From the NCBI GenBank assembly GCA_030614705.1, contig JAUWTN010000004.1, positions 1 through 36,397 on the forward strand: a stretch of 36,397 nucleotides of DNA, read 5' to 3'. A program made the position numbers and the translations under genes. This document shows positions 5,986 to 24,516 of the stretch, in pieces. The notes beneath the pieces are model-generated. The model searched no databases, was not told where the DNA came from, and saw only the letters and a list, made by a program, of their open reading frames with translations. The stretch comes from Candidatus Aenigmatarchaeota archaeon. GTDB taxonomy: Archaea; Aenigmatarchaeota; Aenigmatarchaeia; QMZS01. Within the stretch, counting starts at the first letter, position 1, and each line of letters starts with the position of its first letter.

Positions 5986-6663
5986 TTAAAATAAAATCAT
6001 AACAAATATAAACGTTATTGTGCACAAAATAATCATATGCTTAAGCCCGGAAACAAAAGAATCTTCAATCATTTTTCCTAAAGTGAGTCCAAGAAATATT
6101 GATTCTATGAACACTAAATGAATAAATATATCTTTATATTGAAGAATTTCAACAGTCTCAAAATAAGGTATGAAGAAATTAAAAACAATGAATATAATTC
6201 CGAGGAATACAAAGAATACAAAATAAAGAGAAATTAATTGAGGGAACAATTCGGTTTTTCGTTCTCTCTCAAGTTTTTTTGTTAAAGCCACATAATTATA
6301 TATCTCACCCATATTCTTGCCAATATCCTGACTAAACTGCGACACTTTATCCATTAAAATTACCAACCTGTCAATAAAATTATTATTCACTTTTTTTCCA
6401 AAATTTTTAATGGCCTTTTCAAACGGAACACCCCACTCAATCTGCAAACACATATTTCTTATAAATGGGGTGAGACACCCGTAATTTATATTTTTGCTTT
6501 TTTTCACCGCATCAACAAGAGACATCCCTGTTGAAGTATTGTTATAAACTTCCTGTATGAAGATTGGAAAATAATCATAAATTTCCTTATTTTTTGAATA
6601 CCGCCTATAAATAAAATAAACCGGAATTAAAAACCCAATAAAAACAGCGAGTTCAATTATCAT
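5986..6663 (-). CDS. type II/IV secretion platform protein, T2SSF domain, C-terminal half (FlaJ/TadC-type)
   Basis: Multi-TM; 'YNNTSTGMSLVDAVKKSK' and 'GVPFEKAIKNFGKKV' T2SSF-like; ATGA overlap with the upstream N-half. Confidence 0.85.
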   Translation of the reverse strand: MIIELAVFIGFLIPVYFIYRRYSKNKEIYDYFPIFIQEVYNNTSTGMSLVDAVKKSKNINYGCLTPFIRNMCLQIEWGVPFEKAIKNFGKKVNNNFIDRLVILMDKVSQFSQDIGKNMGEIYNYVALTKKLERERKTELFPQLISLYFVFFVFLGIIFIVFNFFIPYFETVEILQYKDIFIHLVFIESIFLGLTLGKMIEDSFVSGLKHMIILCTITFIFVMILF

Positions 6664-7523
6664 ACTCTAACAACATTCAAAAATATAATAAAAGTTATTC
6701 CCACAACAGGAACAGCTGCATAAGTAATTAATTTTATCAAAAACAAAATATCATAAGACATAAAAATTGGTTCAATTAATGAAAAAGTGGTAAGAACAAT
6801 TATCAGCACAAGCGGTGCAATCAAAAGAGCAATTATAAAAATATCCGCCAGAAAACCCATCATGGAAGTATATTTCTGCTGCTTACCTTCATAAACATCC
6901 AGTTCTTTCTTAGTCTCTTCATTCAAATATAAACTTATGTTGCCCCCTGAAAGTATGGTGGACATAAAACCAAGGAGAAAGATTTTAAATGGTTTTGATG
7001 GTGTTCTTAAAGCAATACTTCTCATACTTGAAACAACATCTTCCCCCACCTGATAAATATTTTTGTAAACTCTCTCACACTCTTTTGAAAATTCTCCAAA
7101 CTCCTTTGCCTCAGCAACATATTTGAACATTCTTGTTGTTGGCACACCGCTCTTTGAAATGATATTCATGTAAGCAATACCAAGGGGCATATTTCGCTCA
7201 AGACTATCTAACTGCAGATTATATTTATAGAAAGGATAAAGGTAAAAAATTGTGGCAACCAAAAAAGTAATTGTTATGGTAATGATAAATGAACTCAAAA
7301 TTGAGAACAGAAAATCAAGCCTCCAGAAAACCAAAAACAACAACAAAAAATATACTGAAAAAACACTGAAACTTAAGAAACAATAGAAGAATAATTGACC
7401 AACATATTTTTCATAGATGATAGGATAATTGGATTTCTTAATTAATTCTTCAAGGGGTTTTAGATATTTTCCAAAATATTTTATACCAATTCTCTGGAAC
7501 AAATGAATTAAGTCCTGATACAT
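6660..7523 (-). CDS. type II/IV secretion platform protein, T2SSF domain, N-terminal half (FlaJ/TadC-type)
   Basis: Starts MYQDLIHLFQRIG (start chosen at 7523, not 7832, because the longer extension overlaps the divergent CDS); 'MRSIALRTPSKPFKIFLLGFMSTILSGGNISLYL' is shared with the paralog at 20366. Confidence 0.87.
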   Translation of the reverse strand: MYQDLIHLFQRIGIKYFGKYLKPLEELIKKSNYPIIYEKYVGQLFFYCFLSFSVFSVYFLLLFLVFWRLDFLFSILSSFIITITITFLVATIFYLYPFYKYNLQLDSLERNMPLGIAYMNIISKSGVPTTRMFKYVAEAKEFGEFSKECERVYKNIYQVGEDVVSSMRSIALRTPSKPFKIFLLGFMSTILSGGNISLYLNEETKKELDVYEGKQQKYTSMMGFLADIFIIALLIAPLVLIIVLTTFSLIEPIFMSYDILFLIKLITYAAVPVVGITFIIFLNVVRV

Positions 7524-7545
7524 AATTAAAGATGTTTTATAAGTT

Positions 7546-8163
7546 ATGGTTTTCTTCAAAGGTTTTGGTGAAATAAAACACGAAGAAACTAAAAAAATGA
7601 TTAAAGCCGGAATTATAATAACCCTGCTTTTTATATTATTCTGCATAGCTCTGTTTATTTTAGCTAAAATATATCTGCCTATTGGTCTTTTATCGCATAT
7701 CGATTTATCCGGTTTTCTGGAGTATGGATACCTCGGACTGTTTGTAATAACTTTTTTTGGGGGAACCTTCTTTCCCGCAGGAAGTCCCGCAGTAGTCGCT
7801 GCAGCCGGAGTAATTGGAATGAATAAAACCACAGTGGCTTTTGTTGCTGCTGCAGGCTACACTTTAGGCACTATGGTAAATTATGCGTTTGCATACTGGC
7901 TTGGAATTCATTATGTTCAGAAAAAAATAGGGAAAGAAGTCTATAAAGAAATTGTCGGATGGTGGAATAAATGGGGAACTATTCTTCTAGTTACCTTTGC
8001 CCTGATTCCAGTGTTGCCTTTCAGTTATCTTGCATTATTGTGCGGGTTATTCAGATACAATATTGCTTATTTCATATTGATTAATTTTGGTTCCAATTTA
8101 CTGAATTCTTACTTATTTGTATACCTTGGAAGTTCTGCAGCTAATTGGATTGGGTTGTTTTAA
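7546..8163 (+). CDS. VTT/DedA (SNARE-associated) family membrane protein; start may be 7597
   Basis: Polytopic; 'FFGGTFFPAGSPAVVAAAGVIG', 'ALIPVLPFSYLALLCGLFRYNIAYF' as in VTT-domain proteins. Confidence 0.85.
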   Translation: MVFFKGFGEIKHEETKKMIKAGIIITLLFILFCIALFILAKIYLPIGLLSHIDLSGFLEYGYLGLFVITFFGGTFFPAGSPAVVAAAGVIGMNKTTVAFVAAAGYTLGTMVNYAFAYWLGIHYVQKKIGKEVYKEIVGWWNKWGTILLVTFALIPVLPFSYLALLCGLFRYNIAYFILINFGSNLLNSYLFVYLGSSAANWIGLF

Positions 8164-11060: not shown

Positions 11061-13067
11061 CTAAGTTCCTAAACCGACTTTAATTACCTCAAGGAATGGT
11101 ATGAATACCATGAGTGAAACAAAAGAAACCAGGACATATACTAAACCCCCAACCATCAGATTTGTTGACATCACAGTGTTCCTGTGTATTTTATCTTCAC
11201 CAACCTGAATACCGCTCGTAAACCAAGACAAAATAATTATGGTTTCCAGAGCATAAAATCCAATTGCCAACTGGAAAGTTGCGGCTGATATTGGAACTTC
11301 TTTCATAACTGATAAAAATGCTGTATATCCAACAGCCCCGGAAGGCATATCACCCATAGCTTCTCCAAAAAAACTAAACATTTCAAGCATCATATAAGTA
11401 AGCGTATTCATTATCGCGCAAATCAAAGGCAATAAAATTGTTGCCTGCATTTGCATACTTCCAATTACCTCTGAAAATTTTTCCTGAATGGATTCCTGGG
11501 TTTTATGCAAATTTTTCAGGTATCTTGAAATTGAAATCATTATCTCAGAAACAATTTTTGTTCCTTTGTTTGAAGCATCTACGATAGCTTTCAAAACAGA
11601 ATAAATTAATTTAGAAGGGAACTGCCTTATAGCCCCATCATTCTCATCAAAAATTGCCTGCTCAACAGTATGATTTTTGTACTTTATATTTGCATCGATT
11701 CTTTTCAATAAAGTTAATGCATAATGCCCTTTTAAAGTCGGCATTATTTTCCCTATTGCAACCTCAAGAGGAATCCCTCGGTCAACTTCCTGACCCAACC
11801 CAAATAACAGTTCCTTAAATTCATCTTCCATCTCAACAATATCTCCCCTAAGTTTAGTCTTCTGGAAAGAACTTAATCTAAAAATTATTGCAAATGACAT
11901 GAAAAATCCAAGAGTAACCACATAGGACATTTGAAGAGATAAAGTGTTAAAATTTACATACCATAGATATAAAAAAGGAATCAGGAAAACTACTCCAATA
12001 AAATAAGAAGACACACAAAAATTTCCAATCCTGAATTTACCTTCAGGGGGTAAATCAGGATGCAGAGAAATATCCGGTTCCGGGAGAGTAACAACCCTTT
12101 TGTTGAGTATCTCTTTTATCACAAACACCAAAATTATTGGCAAAACAAGGTCATAAAATACAAAAATAAGGATTGGAGAAATACTGTCCTCAAGGAAAAT
12201 TGTTATAATAGGAAGCATTGTTAAAGTTAAAGTCGGCAATAAAATACCAAGCGCATTTATAAGAGTAACCGGCGATGCAAGGTTTACAACATAAGAATTG
12301 GATCTTTCACTTAGAGAAGAAAGCATTATATCAATAGATTCATCAAGCAGTTCCATTCTCCGGTTCCCTGTAGCATACAAAGAATAAATAATCGCGTTGA
12401 TTGAATCTGAAAATGATCTGAACGAACCTTTCCACTTTTCAGAATAATCAAGCAAACCCTGTTCCATTGACCTGTGAGTTCCCATGTTCACATCCCAGAT
12501 TAATTTTTTCATATCATATGCGAGAGGTCCGGTCAGGTTTGAGGTGGCAAATTTTAATGCCCCCTCGAGGTTTGGAAAATTACGCATATAAATTACAATA
12601 TGCAATATCAGCATAATTATTTCAGAACCTGCCTGCAACTCATATATCTTCCTTAAACGCATTGGGGTTGTATAAAAATAATAATACATTACTGCAGAAA
12701 GTAACATTAAAATAATCCCTACCGTAAAATCAATGTAACCAAACAAAAGCAGAGTGCCGGTGCTAAGGCATATCAACAAACCTAAAAGAATTGCAAATGA
12801 GGTCACGCCTTTTGGAGTTACTTTCAGATGAGCAAAAGCAATTGATTCTTCCATTTTTTCTCTTGCTTTTTTATCAGGCTCTATCTGCAATAAATTACCA
12901 GAGAATTTTGCAAGTTTTTCATAAATCGTATCCGGAGTTGCTATATCTTTTTCTTCTCTCTTAAAAACCCCATAATTAATTGACTCCATCTTCGCGATTT
13001 TAGCCGCAGGAAACTGAACTCCATCTTTCTTCTTTTTATGCTCTACAATAAAATCAAGAAGACCCAT
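11061..13067 (-). CDS. FlaJ/TadC-type secretion platform protein with two T2SSF domains (668 aa, fused form)
   Basis: Two homologous cytosolic/TM blocks ('HRSMEQGLLDYSEKWKGSFRSF', 'DRGIPLEVAIGKIMPTLKGHYALTLLKRI') with multiple TM segments. Confidence 0.88.
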   Translation of the reverse strand: MGLLDFIVEHKKKKDGVQFPAAKIAKMESINYGVFKREEKDIATPDTIYEKLAKFSGNLLQIEPDKKAREKMEESIAFAHLKVTPKGVTSFAILLGLLICLSTGTLLLFGYIDFTVGIILMLLSAVMYYYFYTTPMRLRKIYELQAGSEIIMLILHIVIYMRNFPNLEGALKFATSNLTGPLAYDMKKLIWDVNMGTHRSMEQGLLDYSEKWKGSFRSFSDSINAIIYSLYATGNRRMELLDESIDIMLSSLSERSNSYVVNLASPVTLINALGILLPTLTLTMLPIITIFLEDSISPILIFVFYDLVLPIILVFVIKEILNKRVVTLPEPDISLHPDLPPEGKFRIGNFCVSSYFIGVVFLIPFLYLWYVNFNTLSLQMSYVVTLGFFMSFAIIFRLSSFQKTKLRGDIVEMEDEFKELLFGLGQEVDRGIPLEVAIGKIMPTLKGHYALTLLKRIDANIKYKNHTVEQAIFDENDGAIRQFPSKLIYSVLKAIVDASNKGTKIVSEIMISISRYLKNLHKTQESIQEKFSEVIGSMQMQATILLPLICAIMNTLTYMMLEMFSFFGEAMGDMPSGAVGYTAFLSVMKEVPISAATFQLAIGFYALETIIILSWFTSGIQVGEDKIHRNTVMSTNLMVGGLVYVLVSFVSLMVFIPFLEVIKVGLGT

Positions 13068-19844: not shown

Positions 19845-20249
19845 TTATTTCTTAACCAACTCAGGCATTTTCATTGGTGATGGCAACTGCAAATCATCCG
19901 CAATTTTCACGCTCTGAACCAGACATTTCTTGAAAATGTAATTAATAACCTGCAATGAAGTTTTTTCATCAAATTTCTTTTCTTTATTCCATTGGGCTAA
20001 AACTTCTTCCTGATTTTTATCATTATACAACAATTCGCCGCAGATATTTATTTTTGCATTTGTTGGCTCATATTTGGTTTTGTACTCAAATTCTATTGCA
20101 AGAACTTTTGTCTTATTTCCCGCAATTCCTAACTCTCTTTCAACAATGTTTTTTATTTTCGGCAATGAAGAAGATATTTTTAACTCTCCGGTTGGAACTC
20201 CTCCAACAGATCCTTCAATGTTAGTTAACCTGAAACTCAATATTCCCAT
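19845..20249 (-). CDS. conserved-looking hypothetical protein (134 aa)
   Basis: Beta-rich, alternating pattern 'TKVLAIEFEYKTKYEPTNAKINICGELLY'; no family assigned. Confidence 0.6.
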   Translation of the reverse strand: MGILSFRLTNIEGSVGGVPTGELKISSSLPKIKNIVERELGIAGNKTKVLAIEFEYKTKYEPTNAKINICGELLYNDKNQEEVLAQWNKEKKFDEKTSLQVINYIFKKCLVQSVKIADDLQLPSPMKMPELVKK

Positions 20250-20365: not shown

Positions 20366-21223
20366 ATGCTTCAGAATTATATTAAACGAGCTTATTTATC
20401 CTACGGCGAAATTGCGCAAAAAATTGCGCCTAATTTTAAATATGTGATGGAAGACCTTAAGAAAAGCGGATTGAAATACACTCTTGAAGAATATCTTTCC
20501 CTTGCAATTTTTATATCCCTGATAGTTTTTGTGGTTGAACTTCCAATCATCACTTTAATATTATCCTTCTTCATTAATGTAGTATTTGCAATAATACTTT
20601 CATTTATTTTCTCAGGGTTTGGAGCAATACTTATTTTCTTCTTATTCACAACTTACCCGAAAACAGAAGTCGCGAGTATGGCTTCTGAAATAGACAAAGG
20701 TTTGCCTTTCTCTGTAAGTTACATGAGCGCTGCATCAAGTTCTGACAGTCCGCCTATTGATATATTCAGGTCAGTTTCAAACCTAAAAGAATATCCCCGT
20801 TTAAGAGAACAGGCAACAAATGTGATAAGAGATGTTGATGGTCTTGGTATGGATATCCTGACCGCTTTGAGGAGAGAATCCAAGAGAACACCCAGCAAAG
20901 AATTTAAGGATCTATTACTGGGACTTGAAGCAACGATTAGTTCAGGAGCTAATATGACAGATTACCTGACAAGCAAATCAACATCCTTATTCACCGAATA
21001 CCAGAGAAGGATTAAAAGTTACGCTGATTTATTATCAATGTTGATAGAGATATACATAACGGTTATTATCATAGGTCCAATATTTTTTACAATCTTATCC
21101 AGTGTTATGGCTATGATGGGTGGGATAGAAAATGTTGTTGCCACTCAGGCTTTAATTTCATTTATAATAATGCCTTTGATGTCTACGGCATTGGCCTTCT
21201 ATATTAGTGTTGCTTCACCATGA
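20366..21223 (+). CDS. FlaJ/TadC-type platform protein, N-terminal T2SSF half
   Basis: 'LTALRRESKRTPSKEFKDLLLGLEATISSGANMTDYL' parallels 6660..7523; ATGA overlap with the downstream C-half. Confidence 0.9.
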   Translation: MLQNYIKRAYLSYGEIAQKIAPNFKYVMEDLKKSGLKYTLEEYLSLAIFISLIVFVVELPIITLILSFFINVVFAIILSFIFSGFGAILIFFLFTTYPKTEVASMASEIDKGLPFSVSYMSAASSSDSPPIDIFRSVSNLKEYPRLREQATNVIRDVDGLGMDILTALRRESKRTPSKEFKDLLLGLEATISSGANMTDYLTSKSTSLFTEYQRRIKSYADLLSMLIEIYITVIIIGPIFFTILSSVMAMMGGIENVVATQALISFIIMPLMSTALAFYISVASP

Positions 21224-22227
21224 GACCGAAACCTGCTCAGTTTGGAAAAAATAAAAATCCCCCAATTAAATTTGAATTAAAATCCACAAAAAACCGAAAT
21301 ATCCTGATTGTTTCTTCAATCATCGCCATCATAATTTTAATTATCGGGTTGTTTGTTTCTTTCGCATTTAATAATTTCAACATCGTATTAAACTCTTTTG
21401 TCATAGCAATATTTGTAGTGCTTATTCCTTCTTTCCTGTATAATTATATCCAATTCCTAAAGATAAAATCCTGCGAAAACTATTTGCCTTTATTTTTGGG
21501 AGATTTAAAAGAAGCAAAAAAAAGCGGAGTGGCTTTCCCTGAAGCAGTTAAAGCCTGCAGGGGAGATTATGGAAAATTAAACAAACATATTGCCAAATTA
21601 AAAAAAGATATCAGCTGGGGTATAAATATAGACCAGGCTCTAAAACATATGCAAAGAAATCTAAGAAGAAGTCCTGTAATCTCAAGGTCTCTTTCAATAC
21701 TTCTTGAAACTTACCGGACTGGAGGTAATCTGGAAGATATTCTTGAAACACTCATAGATTCATTGCTCAAAATAATGGATAGTGAAAAATACAAACAGTC
21801 TGTGATGCAACAGCATGTTGTGATGATGTATGGTATTTTTCTGATGTATATAGGTCTGATAATTATAATAGGAAATTTCCTTATTCCAATGATTAATGAA
21901 ATGGGCGGAAATGAAAATGAAATGATTGGGGTTTCATTAATGGAACCGAAATCCCCCTGCATTGACTGCGAAAATTTAATTTGTCATGGTCTGTGCGGTT
22001 ATTACAATGTGCTTGGAGGTATGCTTGGATTTGGAGAACCTGATTCCATTGAAATTTATTATAAATCATTATTCCTCACAATGATTCTTATCCAGGGATT
22101 CTTTACAGGAATTGTTGCGGGACAAATATCTTCGAGAGACTGGATGGATGGGATAAAACATGGTCTGATTATGTTTATGATTGGGTTAGTTACTGTGATT
22201 ATTACAAACCTTATGGGTATCTTCTAA
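21220..22227 (+). CDS. FlaJ/TadC-type platform protein, C-terminal T2SSF half, with Cys-rich insertion
   Basis: 'LPLFLGDLKEAKKSGVAFPEAVKAC', 'GINIDQALKHMQRNL' T2SSF-like; insertion SPCIDCENLICHGLCGYY near a TM segment. Confidence 0.9.
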   Translation: MRPKPAQFGKNKNPPIKFELKSTKNRNILIVSSIIAIIILIIGLFVSFAFNNFNIVLNSFVIAIFVVLIPSFLYNYIQFLKIKSCENYLPLFLGDLKEAKKSGVAFPEAVKACRGDYGKLNKHIAKLKKDISWGINIDQALKHMQRNLRRSPVISRSLSILLETYRTGGNLEDILETLIDSLLKIMDSEKYKQSVMQQHVVMMYGIFLMYIGLIIIIGNFLIPMINEMGGNENEMIGVSLMEPKSPCIDCENLICHGLCGYYNVLGGMLGFGEPDSIEIYYKSLFLTMILIQGFFTGIVAGQISSRDWMDGIKHGLIMFMIGLVTVIITNLMGIF

Positions 22228-22228
22228 A

Positions 22229-22762
22229 ATGTCCAATAAAAAATATCTAAAATCCGCAATGGTGGATTCATTAAAAAACAAAGGGCAGGTAAATATTCCC
22301 TTCACAATGAGTTTATTTGTATTTATCGGCTTAACCATATATTTAATCTCAAGCATAATTGGTTACCATCCATCCCACAGCGAAGCCATAAAATCCGATG
22401 TTTTATACAGCAAGGCTTATTCAATATCCGAACTATTAATTAAAGATGAGGGTCATCCCTCAAACTGGGACGAAAATAATTTCAAAAGAATTGGGCTTGC
22501 ATCTGAACCTTATCGACTCAATAGTTTAAAACTTACTGAACTCGAAAAAATATGCAATTCCACAAATATTGCAAACATCAAAAAATTCAGGGAATCTTTT
22601 GGATTGATGGATAATAACCTGAATATTGAGATTAATTATATAAATGGAACTCTTATTGAAGACTATTATCCCGGAAATAAAATCGCAGGGAGAAGCGCTT
22701 ATGTGAAAAGGATTTGTGTTTTGAATGATGAACTTGTGGAGGTGATTGTTTATGTTGGGTAG
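22229..22762 (+). CDS. pilin-like / pilus-associated secreted protein (class III-like signal peptide)
   Basis: 'LKNKGQVNIPFTMSLFVFIGLTIYLIS' resembles the archaeal KGQ-x-hydrophobic prepilin signature; starts 1 nt after the T2SSF C-half. Confidence 0.65.
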   Translation: MSNKKYLKSAMVDSLKNKGQVNIPFTMSLFVFIGLTIYLISSIIGYHPSHSEAIKSDVLYSKAYSISELLIKDEGHPSNWDENNFKRIGLASEPYRLNSLKLTELEKICNSTNIANIKKFRESFGLMDNNLNIEINYINGTLIEDYYPGNKIAGRSAYVKRICVLNDELVEVIVYVG

Positions 22763-22838: not shown

Positions 22839-23111
22839 ATGATAAATACAGAAGAATCTGATAGGAACAGACAAGTCTATGAATTTCTTTTAGAAAGAAT
22901 AAAAGATGGTTCTATTCTTGACTACGCGACTATTGGTGAATATACTTTTGGTGGTGAAACTGAGTATGCAAGAACCATAGCCGAAGAAGAAGGTTATTTG
23001 ACAGAGGATTTGGATACAGCTATAAATATAGGACAGAATACATTTTCCAATAAAGTTAAGGAACTAGATTACTCTTTTTTAAAATATAAAAACGGGACAC
23101 CGAAAATATAA
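22839..23111 (+). CDS. hypothetical protein (90 aa)
   Basis: ORF with TATA-like element at correct spacing. Confidence 0.6.
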   Translation: MINTEESDRNRQVYEFLLERIKDGSILDYATIGEYTFGGETEYARTIAEEEGYLTEDLDTAINIGQNTFSNKVKELDYSFLKYKNGTPKI

Positions 23112-23229: not shown

Positions 23230-24516
23230 ATGTTGCATAAAGGATTTATAAGAATTCTGGAAATTATTATGTTTTCATTTATCATCTTCGGTCTGATGAT
23301 GCCAACTTTTTTCTATTACTCCAATGAAAATGATTGGGTTGAAGTAAACAGTTTGATGATATGCAATGACCTGCTTAATTCCCTTGAAAAAAGCAATGTT
23401 TTTGATGATGTTCTGATAACAGATCCTCTCACTGACGGGACAAATTTATCTGAAGAACACAGGCTTGATATTGAACTGCTTTACAATCTCACTTCCAGAG
23501 CTTTCCCTGTTGCTTTTGATTTTGGATATGAAATAAAAAATGTTCCTAAATACAATATTTCAATTGGATGTAATTGCACACCAACGCAGATAAGCTGGCT
23601 GAATAAAAATATATTAACTCCGAGTTATCCAACTGCGGTATTTAATATTGAACAAGTAAATTTAGGCAACATCCCTTCAGGGAAAGATTTGTTTATAATT
23701 TTTGGGGTAAATGATTTATCAGTTTACCAGTCCAATATTACTGAAAAATTAAGAGAAGGGAAAGGATTTGTTTTAATCAGAGATTTTTCCGCTGCGCCAG
23801 ATGCTTTCACAAAAGAAATTTTTGGTCTTGATTATTCCAATGTGGGTTCTGCAGTTCTTGATTTAAAATTTACTAATCTATCTGATTCAAAAATTGCGGG
23901 AATTGCAAAGAGATTTGAAAATAAATTAATTCGGATAAATACCTCAGCAGGAATTGGAACACTTTACCTGAAAGATTTAAATTATGAAGTAAATGCCACA
24001 CAGACTAAAGTAAATATCAGCAATTGTTTACCTCTGGATATTTCTGAAGGGGAAACCTGTTCAATTTCAGGAGTCGGAAATATTACACTTTACCATATAG
24101 ATCCTGTGGTTACGGACTGGACAGGCGCAGCAGAAGAATGGATTGACATTAAAATCTCAGGAATCTCAAATCCAAGAGATTACACCTTCAGGGATAATTT
24201 CCCAAGAGACCTTGCAAAAAACAATCACACTGTTTTATCTAATGGAAATTATGCAGCTGTGAGCAAAAGAACTCTGAGCGAATATTCTTTATCTTACGGG
24301 AATGAACCAAGAACCTTCTGGATTTATGATTATGACCAAAATAAAGAGGATTTAAACCTGCTTCTTAAAACCGGAATTATTTGGGCTTCAGGAGAACATT
24401 ATTTTATTTCTGAAAGGAGTATTCCGGATAAAAAGAACCGATGCACATATTTCAGTTCAGGTCTCAGGGGAAATAATGAGCCTTACCTGATTAATCTATA
24501 TTTTTGGAGTTATTAA
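23230..24516 (+). CDS. membrane-anchored extracytoplasmic protein, probable pilus/secretion-associated
   Basis: N-terminal 'HKGFIRILEIIMFSFIIFGLMMPTFFY' TM anchor followed by a long NxT/S-rich ectodomain; downstream of T2SSF/pilin-like genes. Confidence 0.65.
   Translation: MLHKGFIRILEIIMFSFIIFGLMMPTFFYYSNENDWVEVNSLMICNDLLNSLEKSNVFDDVLITDPLTDGTNLSEEHRLDIELLYNLTSRAFPVAFDFGYEIKNVPKYNISIGCNCTPTQISWLNKNILTPSYPTAVFNIEQVNLGNIPSGKDLFIIFGVNDLSVYQSNITEKLREGKGFVLIRDFSAAPDAFTKEIFGLDYSNVGSAVLDLKFTNLSDSKIAGIAKRFENKLIRINTSAGIGTLYLKDLNYEVNATQTKVNISNCLPLDISEGETCSISGVGNITLYHIDPVVTDWTGAAEEWIDIKISGISNPRDYTFRDNFPRDLAKNNHTVLSNGNYAAVSKRTLSEYSLSYGNEPRTFWIYDYDQNKEDLNLLLKTGIIWASGEHYFISERSIPDKKNRCTYFSSGLRGNNEPYLINLYFWSY

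Follow-up and report, generated by a model that had tools for sequence, protein, structure and literature searches.

The segment 20366-24516 of the window (the whole of contig C40, JAUWTN010000004.1, 36,397 nt) is very probably the downstream half of a type IV pilus operon found across the class; in one family of Ca. Aenigmatarchaeota it has been split from the gene of its ATPase, termed here ATPase B. The source genome (G000, Ca. Aenigmatarchaeota) comprised 729 kb in 55 contigs and was 78% complete. Eleven genomes of the family were sampled, and orthologues of the platform encoded in the segment (copy 2, to distinguish it from copy 1 on the same contig) were found in eight of them; outside the family, contiguity of ATPase and platform genes was scored in 21 genomes of the same class, with adjacency counted by hand from coordinates. 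A search of the N-half alignment against contigs retrieved only six family loci, and the named relatives (92-68% N-half identity) were Candidatus Aenigmatarchaeota. Matches to the A1 profile occurred in 142 of 145 genomes of this Aenigmatarchaeota class, a count that includes copy-1 matches. The features of the segment were as follows.

20366..21223, + strand: N2, N-half of the platform, 285 aa, with one T2SSF domain (PF00482, E 1.9e-16; N-half of FlaJ model NF004704)
20885..20968, + strand: motif RTPSK..LLLG..T..SG inside the T2SSF domain of N2 (R174, T175, P176, S177, and G194 invariant in 8 orthologues)
21220..21223, + strand: ATGA stop/start overlap at the N2-C2 junction, read from the sequence
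21220..22227, + strand: C2, C-half of the platform, 335 aa, with one T2SSF domain (PF00482, E 2.3e-11; C-half of FlaJ models)
21958..21996, + strand: four-cysteine loop CIDCENLICHGLC in C2, flanked by hydrophobic segments and predicted to be extracellular (from the alignment)
22229..22762, + strand: pil2, candidate class III-like minor pilin, 177 aa, with G19 and Q20 invariant ahead of a hydrophobic helix
22763..23229, no strand assigned: 467-bp segment in the gap between pil2 and ecto2, outside the conserved operon, holding a 90-aa ORF (22839-23111)
23230..24516, + strand: ecto2, membrane-anchored large extracytoplasmic protein, 428 aa, with N-terminal KGFIRILE and a hydrophobic stretch

Both T2SSF matches exceeded the Pfam curated cut-off. 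On the FlaJ model NF004704 (555 positions), N2 covered positions 11-236 and C2 positions 265-472, thus identifying them as the N- and C-halves of a platform. The split FlaJ/TadC-type pair with an ATGA junction proposed in a preliminary description of this DNA was therefore recovered, each ORF carrying one T2SSF domain, and so was the paralogous motif common to the two copies (RTPSKEFKDLLLGLEATISSGANMTDYL in copy 2 and RTPSKPFKIFLLGFMSTILSGGNISLYL in copy 1). The 4-nt overlap occurred in all eight family orthologues and was not kept outside the family. Protein identity to relatives was 92-59% for N2, 88-51% for C2, 82-41% for pil2, and 91-40% for ecto2, and conservation at these levels indicates that the feature did not arise by chance. 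No solved structure related to N2 came up when the N-half profile was compared with the PDB. In the four-cysteine loop of C2, C247 and C259 were invariant and C250 and C255 were present in 11 of 12 class-wide genomes, while a search for the pattern in C-halves of copy 1 and of the C19 type did not find it; the loop is thus a signature by which the genes of the copy-2 operon can be recognised, and its residues could possibly form disulfide bonds or bind a metal.

Among the 21 same-class genomes outside the family, 20 had a T2SSE ATPase gene immediately upstream of the copy-2 orthologue and read in the same direction. The gene order in relatives, which is taken as ancestral, was pilB1 - pilB2 - ATPase B - N2 - C2 - pil2 - ecto2, and all seven genes were seen in this order at six loci (L073, L074, L075, L076, L078, and L096). 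The single exception was G031 (L097, L098), from another family, where ATPase B stood apart from N2 and N2 was close to one end of the only contig, an apparent second and independent break of the operon. None of the eight family genomes with copy 2 had an ATPase adjacent to it. Contig C32 of the source genome retained pilB1 - pilB2 - ATPase B and the window retained N2 - C2 - pil2 - ecto2; the C32 cluster corresponds exactly to the missing upstream part, and these gene orders are most simply explained if the operon broke once, between ATPase B and N2, in the ancestor of the family. Phylogenies pointed in the same direction. In the ATPase tree, the ATPases linked to N2/C2 grouped with the stand-alone ATPase B of the family (98/96), those linked to N1/C1 grouped with ATPase C (100/100), and ATPase A was separate (100/100); the platform tree sorted likewise, its groups N2, N1, and NA paralleling ATPase groups B, C, and A. 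Mirror-tree distance correlations gave r 0.82 for B-N2 and 0.77-0.86 for crossed pairs, values that do not separate true from crossed pairs. From the linkage in relatives and the trees, we infer that ATPase B is the cognate ATPase of the copy-2 platform.

It is extremely improbable that the separation is an artefact of MAG binning or assembly, with ATPase B truly lying upstream of N2 in the source genome. Such an origin would be in keeping with the fragmented and incomplete state of the assembly, but both flanks were sequenced, the gene upstream of N2 was an unrelated divergent one (19845-20249), and a release-factor-like gene was found downstream of ATPase B on C32. Moreover, the same arrangement was present in G006, and in G002 both ATPase B and N2 were on one contig (C22), 28 kb apart, which demonstrates that the separation is real; an assembly artefact was on this basis rejected as its cause.

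Five T2SSE proteins were encoded in the source genome, four of the secretion type (A to D) and a PIN-ATPase-KH protein on C14 (equivalog NF010335, 687 bits), a type reported never to occur in secretion contexts (PMC4858521). None of them was on the window contig, in agreement with the absence of a FlaI/TadA ATPase from the window recorded in the preliminary description. The secretion-type ATPases were distributed as follows.

C19: ATPase A, 492 aa, adjoining its own split platform and pilins
C32, 4495-6360: ATPase B, 621 aa, adjoining two pilin-like genes, pilB1 and pilB2
C23: ATPase C, 505 aa
C43: ATPase D, 747 aa

These four classes recurred across the family. ATPase B was kept in 10 of the 11 family genomes; G008 and G009, both incomplete, had it without a detected N2, and G003 had neither ATPase B nor N2. 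Its Walker A and Walker B motifs were intact, and its closest solved relative and best PDB match (E 1.5e-108 over residues 127-582) was 2OAP, the archaeal secretion ATPase GspE2 of Archaeoglobus fulgidus. The best-scoring named model for ATPase B was that of archaellum FlaI (378 bits, under the cut-off of 550), and the score with the TadA model TIGR03819 (177 bits) was also below its cut-off of 373, so that ATPase B was not assigned to the TadA family. A single prepilin peptidase was detected in the source genome (one PF01478 match on C43, E 1.3e-7, 259 aa, with GDGD) and, being the only match, it looks shared among the machines. As a separate observation on D-type ATPases, the gene in G011 (L130, 6537-10280) continued in frame to 1247 aa, and frames of 1287 and 1269 aa in G004 and G008 also matched T2SSE piecewise; these long frames may represent fusions with another domain.

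Downstream of the platform genes, the pil2 ORF opened 1 nt past the C2 stop and was followed by the ectodomain ORF, in the positions previously described. It carried KGQVNIPF and a hydrophobic stretch, and resembled pilA3, a neighbour of the C19 platform. The structure model of pil2 (pLDDT 78.7) presented a helix at residues 23-71 with beta strands after it, and this predicted long N-terminal helix with a small beta domain fits a pilin; a Foldseek search of the model against the PDB gave no meaningful match, the best hits being ribosomal proteins at E 0.04. At mature position 5, the eight family members had Pro, His, or Tyr, and 10 of 11 relatives had Glu or Asp. The family pil2 proteins retained the KGQ (or RGQ) start but lacked the Glu5 of the class III signature QXSXEXXXL, and so did not match this signature. 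Because this residue was lost throughout the family, the role of pil2 may have changed. GspK, the minor pseudopilin at the tip of the type II secretion pseudopilus, likewise lacks Glu5, and by this analogy a tip or initiating role is plausible for pil2. The ecto2 gene was found at the equivalent position in six family genomes, the source genome included, and in most operons of relatives, and its KG..R..E start was invariant in the family; the structure model (pLDDT 51) did not resolve its fold and was too poor for a structure search. In relatives, pil2 and ecto2 overlapped by about 11-38 bp. Within the intervening segment of the window, the first ~75 bp resembled sites on C29, C20, and C13 of the source genome, and the segment may therefore represent a small element of mobile or repeated type.

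These losses could also be read as decay, copy 2 of the family being a relic, or being repurposed, that makes no filament since its ATPase was unlinked, with pil2 and ecto2 in some other membrane role. We consider this quite improbable. Among the sampled genomes, breakage of the operon was limited to this family and a separate case in G031, and the absence of Glu5 from pil2 of the whole family would agree with decay; nevertheless, N2, C2, and pil2 were intact, contiguous, and conserved (59-92% for N2) in 8 of the 11 family genomes, ecto2 persisted in six of these eight, and ATPase B was retained almost throughout the family with its catalytic motifs and both of its pilin neighbours.

A filament-assembling system thus remains the preferred reading of copy 2. 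In type IV filaments, the ATPase acts on the platform from the cytoplasm, and a GxGD peptidase cleaves prepilins before assembly; the genes found here include a T2SSF platform, ATPase B, the prepilin-like pil2, pilB1, and pilB2, and the prepilin peptidase. Judged from this gene content, prepilins of the copy-2 system would be processed by the single GxGD peptidase encoded on C43, cytoplasmic ATPase B, of FlaI/GspE2 type, would convert ATP hydrolysis to movement of the N2+C2 platform, and this platform of two one-domain subunits would draw the prepilins from the membrane into the filament. As minor subunits, or subunits of the tip, pil2 and ecto2 would present the large extracytoplasmic domain. 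No small abundant major pilin was identified for the copy-2 system.

The source genome encoded five platforms: the C19 split pair, copy 1, copy 2, a 668-aa fused form in the window, and a second fused form on C33. The three platforms within about 16 kb of the preliminary description represent several coexisting machines, but they are part of a larger set, and their clustering was not conserved in G001 or G002. The N-half ORF of copy 1 (6660-7832) was over-extended at its 5' end, overlapping a divergent ORF at 7546; judged from relatives, its start is near 7523 (287 aa). The 668-aa fused ORF (11061-13067) had no Pfam match itself, and its orthologues scored T2SSF with E values of 1.6e-6 and 3.3e-5; profile comparison of the fused platform gave nothing with N2 (probability 2%) and a partial match only with C2 (71%), so that the membership of the fused form in T2SSF rests on the orthologues. 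The second fused platform, a paralogue of the 668-aa one with about 690-720 aa, was found among pilin-like genes in G003, G005, G006, G007, and G009, and its partial counterpart in the source genome (G000:C33:15473-16327) reached the contig end. No ATPase was detected near it, either on C33 or at L113-L118.

Alongside the absence of an ATPase from the window, it had been proposed that several distinct pilus-like machines may share one ATPase encoded elsewhere. Indeed, copy 1, copy 2, and the 668-aa platform were all unlinked from ATPases, in the source genome and in the family genomes examined, and only system A was intact in the former. Yet the genomes had four distinct, conserved secretion-type ATPase classes instead of one, and in relatives every platform class had a particular ATPase class as its neighbour: B for copy 2, C for copy 1 (in the eight relatives examined), D, adjacent or nearby, for the 668-aa platform (G030, G051, G061, G031, G062, G011, G102, and G035), and A for the C19 pair. 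A dedicated ATPase beside the orthologue of each platform is the arrangement that the preliminary description had itself named as evidence against its proposal. Both members of the B/copy-2 set and of the C/copy-1 set also persisted together in the family, and the parallel grouping in the two trees argues in the same sense. Sharing of one ATPase by the several platforms is consequently unsupported and quite improbable. It survives in a narrower form, as G000, G003, G005, G006, and G009 each had a single D-type ATPase despite two fused platforms, and G043, outside the family, presented the same combination. By the similarity of the platforms, the second fused one would be expected to use ATPase D, and these two platforms, with their single D-type ATPase, are the only real candidate for sharing.

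Platforms split into two genes have been described before. In Tad and Epd-like systems the platform is built from two one-domain genes, which has been explained as gene fission (PMC6668835), and archaeal T4P Clades 1 and 2 have two tadC-like genes (PMC4858521); the split pair of copy 2 is therefore not new. As in the Epd-like and Tad pili of archaea and bacteria (PMC6668835), two adjacent platform genes of one T2SSF domain each are in tandem, and one ATPase of VirB11/GspE type and class III-like pilins bearing KGQ at the N-terminus are present, but the relatives studied here place the ATPase ahead of the two platform genes, the ATPase of the family is unlinked, and ATPase B scores higher with the FlaI than with the TadA model, both under cut-off. 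In archaeal T4P Clades 1 and 2, too, an ATPase gene and pilin-like genes accompany the two TadC-like ones (PMC4858521); the terms "DPANN" and "Aenigm" are absent from the main text of that study. With the archaellum, the copy-2 system has in common that FlaJ and FlaI are the best-scoring named models for N2 and ATPase B, but here the platform is split and the scores (89.5 bits for N2 and 378 bits for ATPase B) are below the equivalog cut-offs of 550. Genes for FlaG, FlaI, and FlaJ are reported in most Aenigmarchaeota genomes (PMC8407114). None of the operons read contained a recognisable archaellum gene, FlaH and archaellins included. The copy-2 locus is a real but ordinary feature, and what is new is only the description of the operon, its partner ATPase, and the break in one family.

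The analysis delineates a pilus operon that is widespread in one Aenigmatarchaeota class, together with its partners. It also indicates that, when an orphan platform is met in one window, relatives should be checked before ATPase sharing is read from it; here, that question was reduced to a single case open to test, that of the fused pair and the one D-type ATPase. The remaining points are the dispersal of three of the four ATPase genes in the family, the loss of Glu5 in pil2, the four-cysteine loop, and the fused pair. A tentative and rather doubtful reading adds to the unlinking of B, C, and D in the family, and to the parallel loss of Glu5 in pil2, an obligatory sharing of the single D-type ATPase by the two fused platforms (668 aa and ~700 aa). 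If true, exchange of motors among pilus machines could be tolerated, or even favoured by selection, in these small, probably host-associated archaea.
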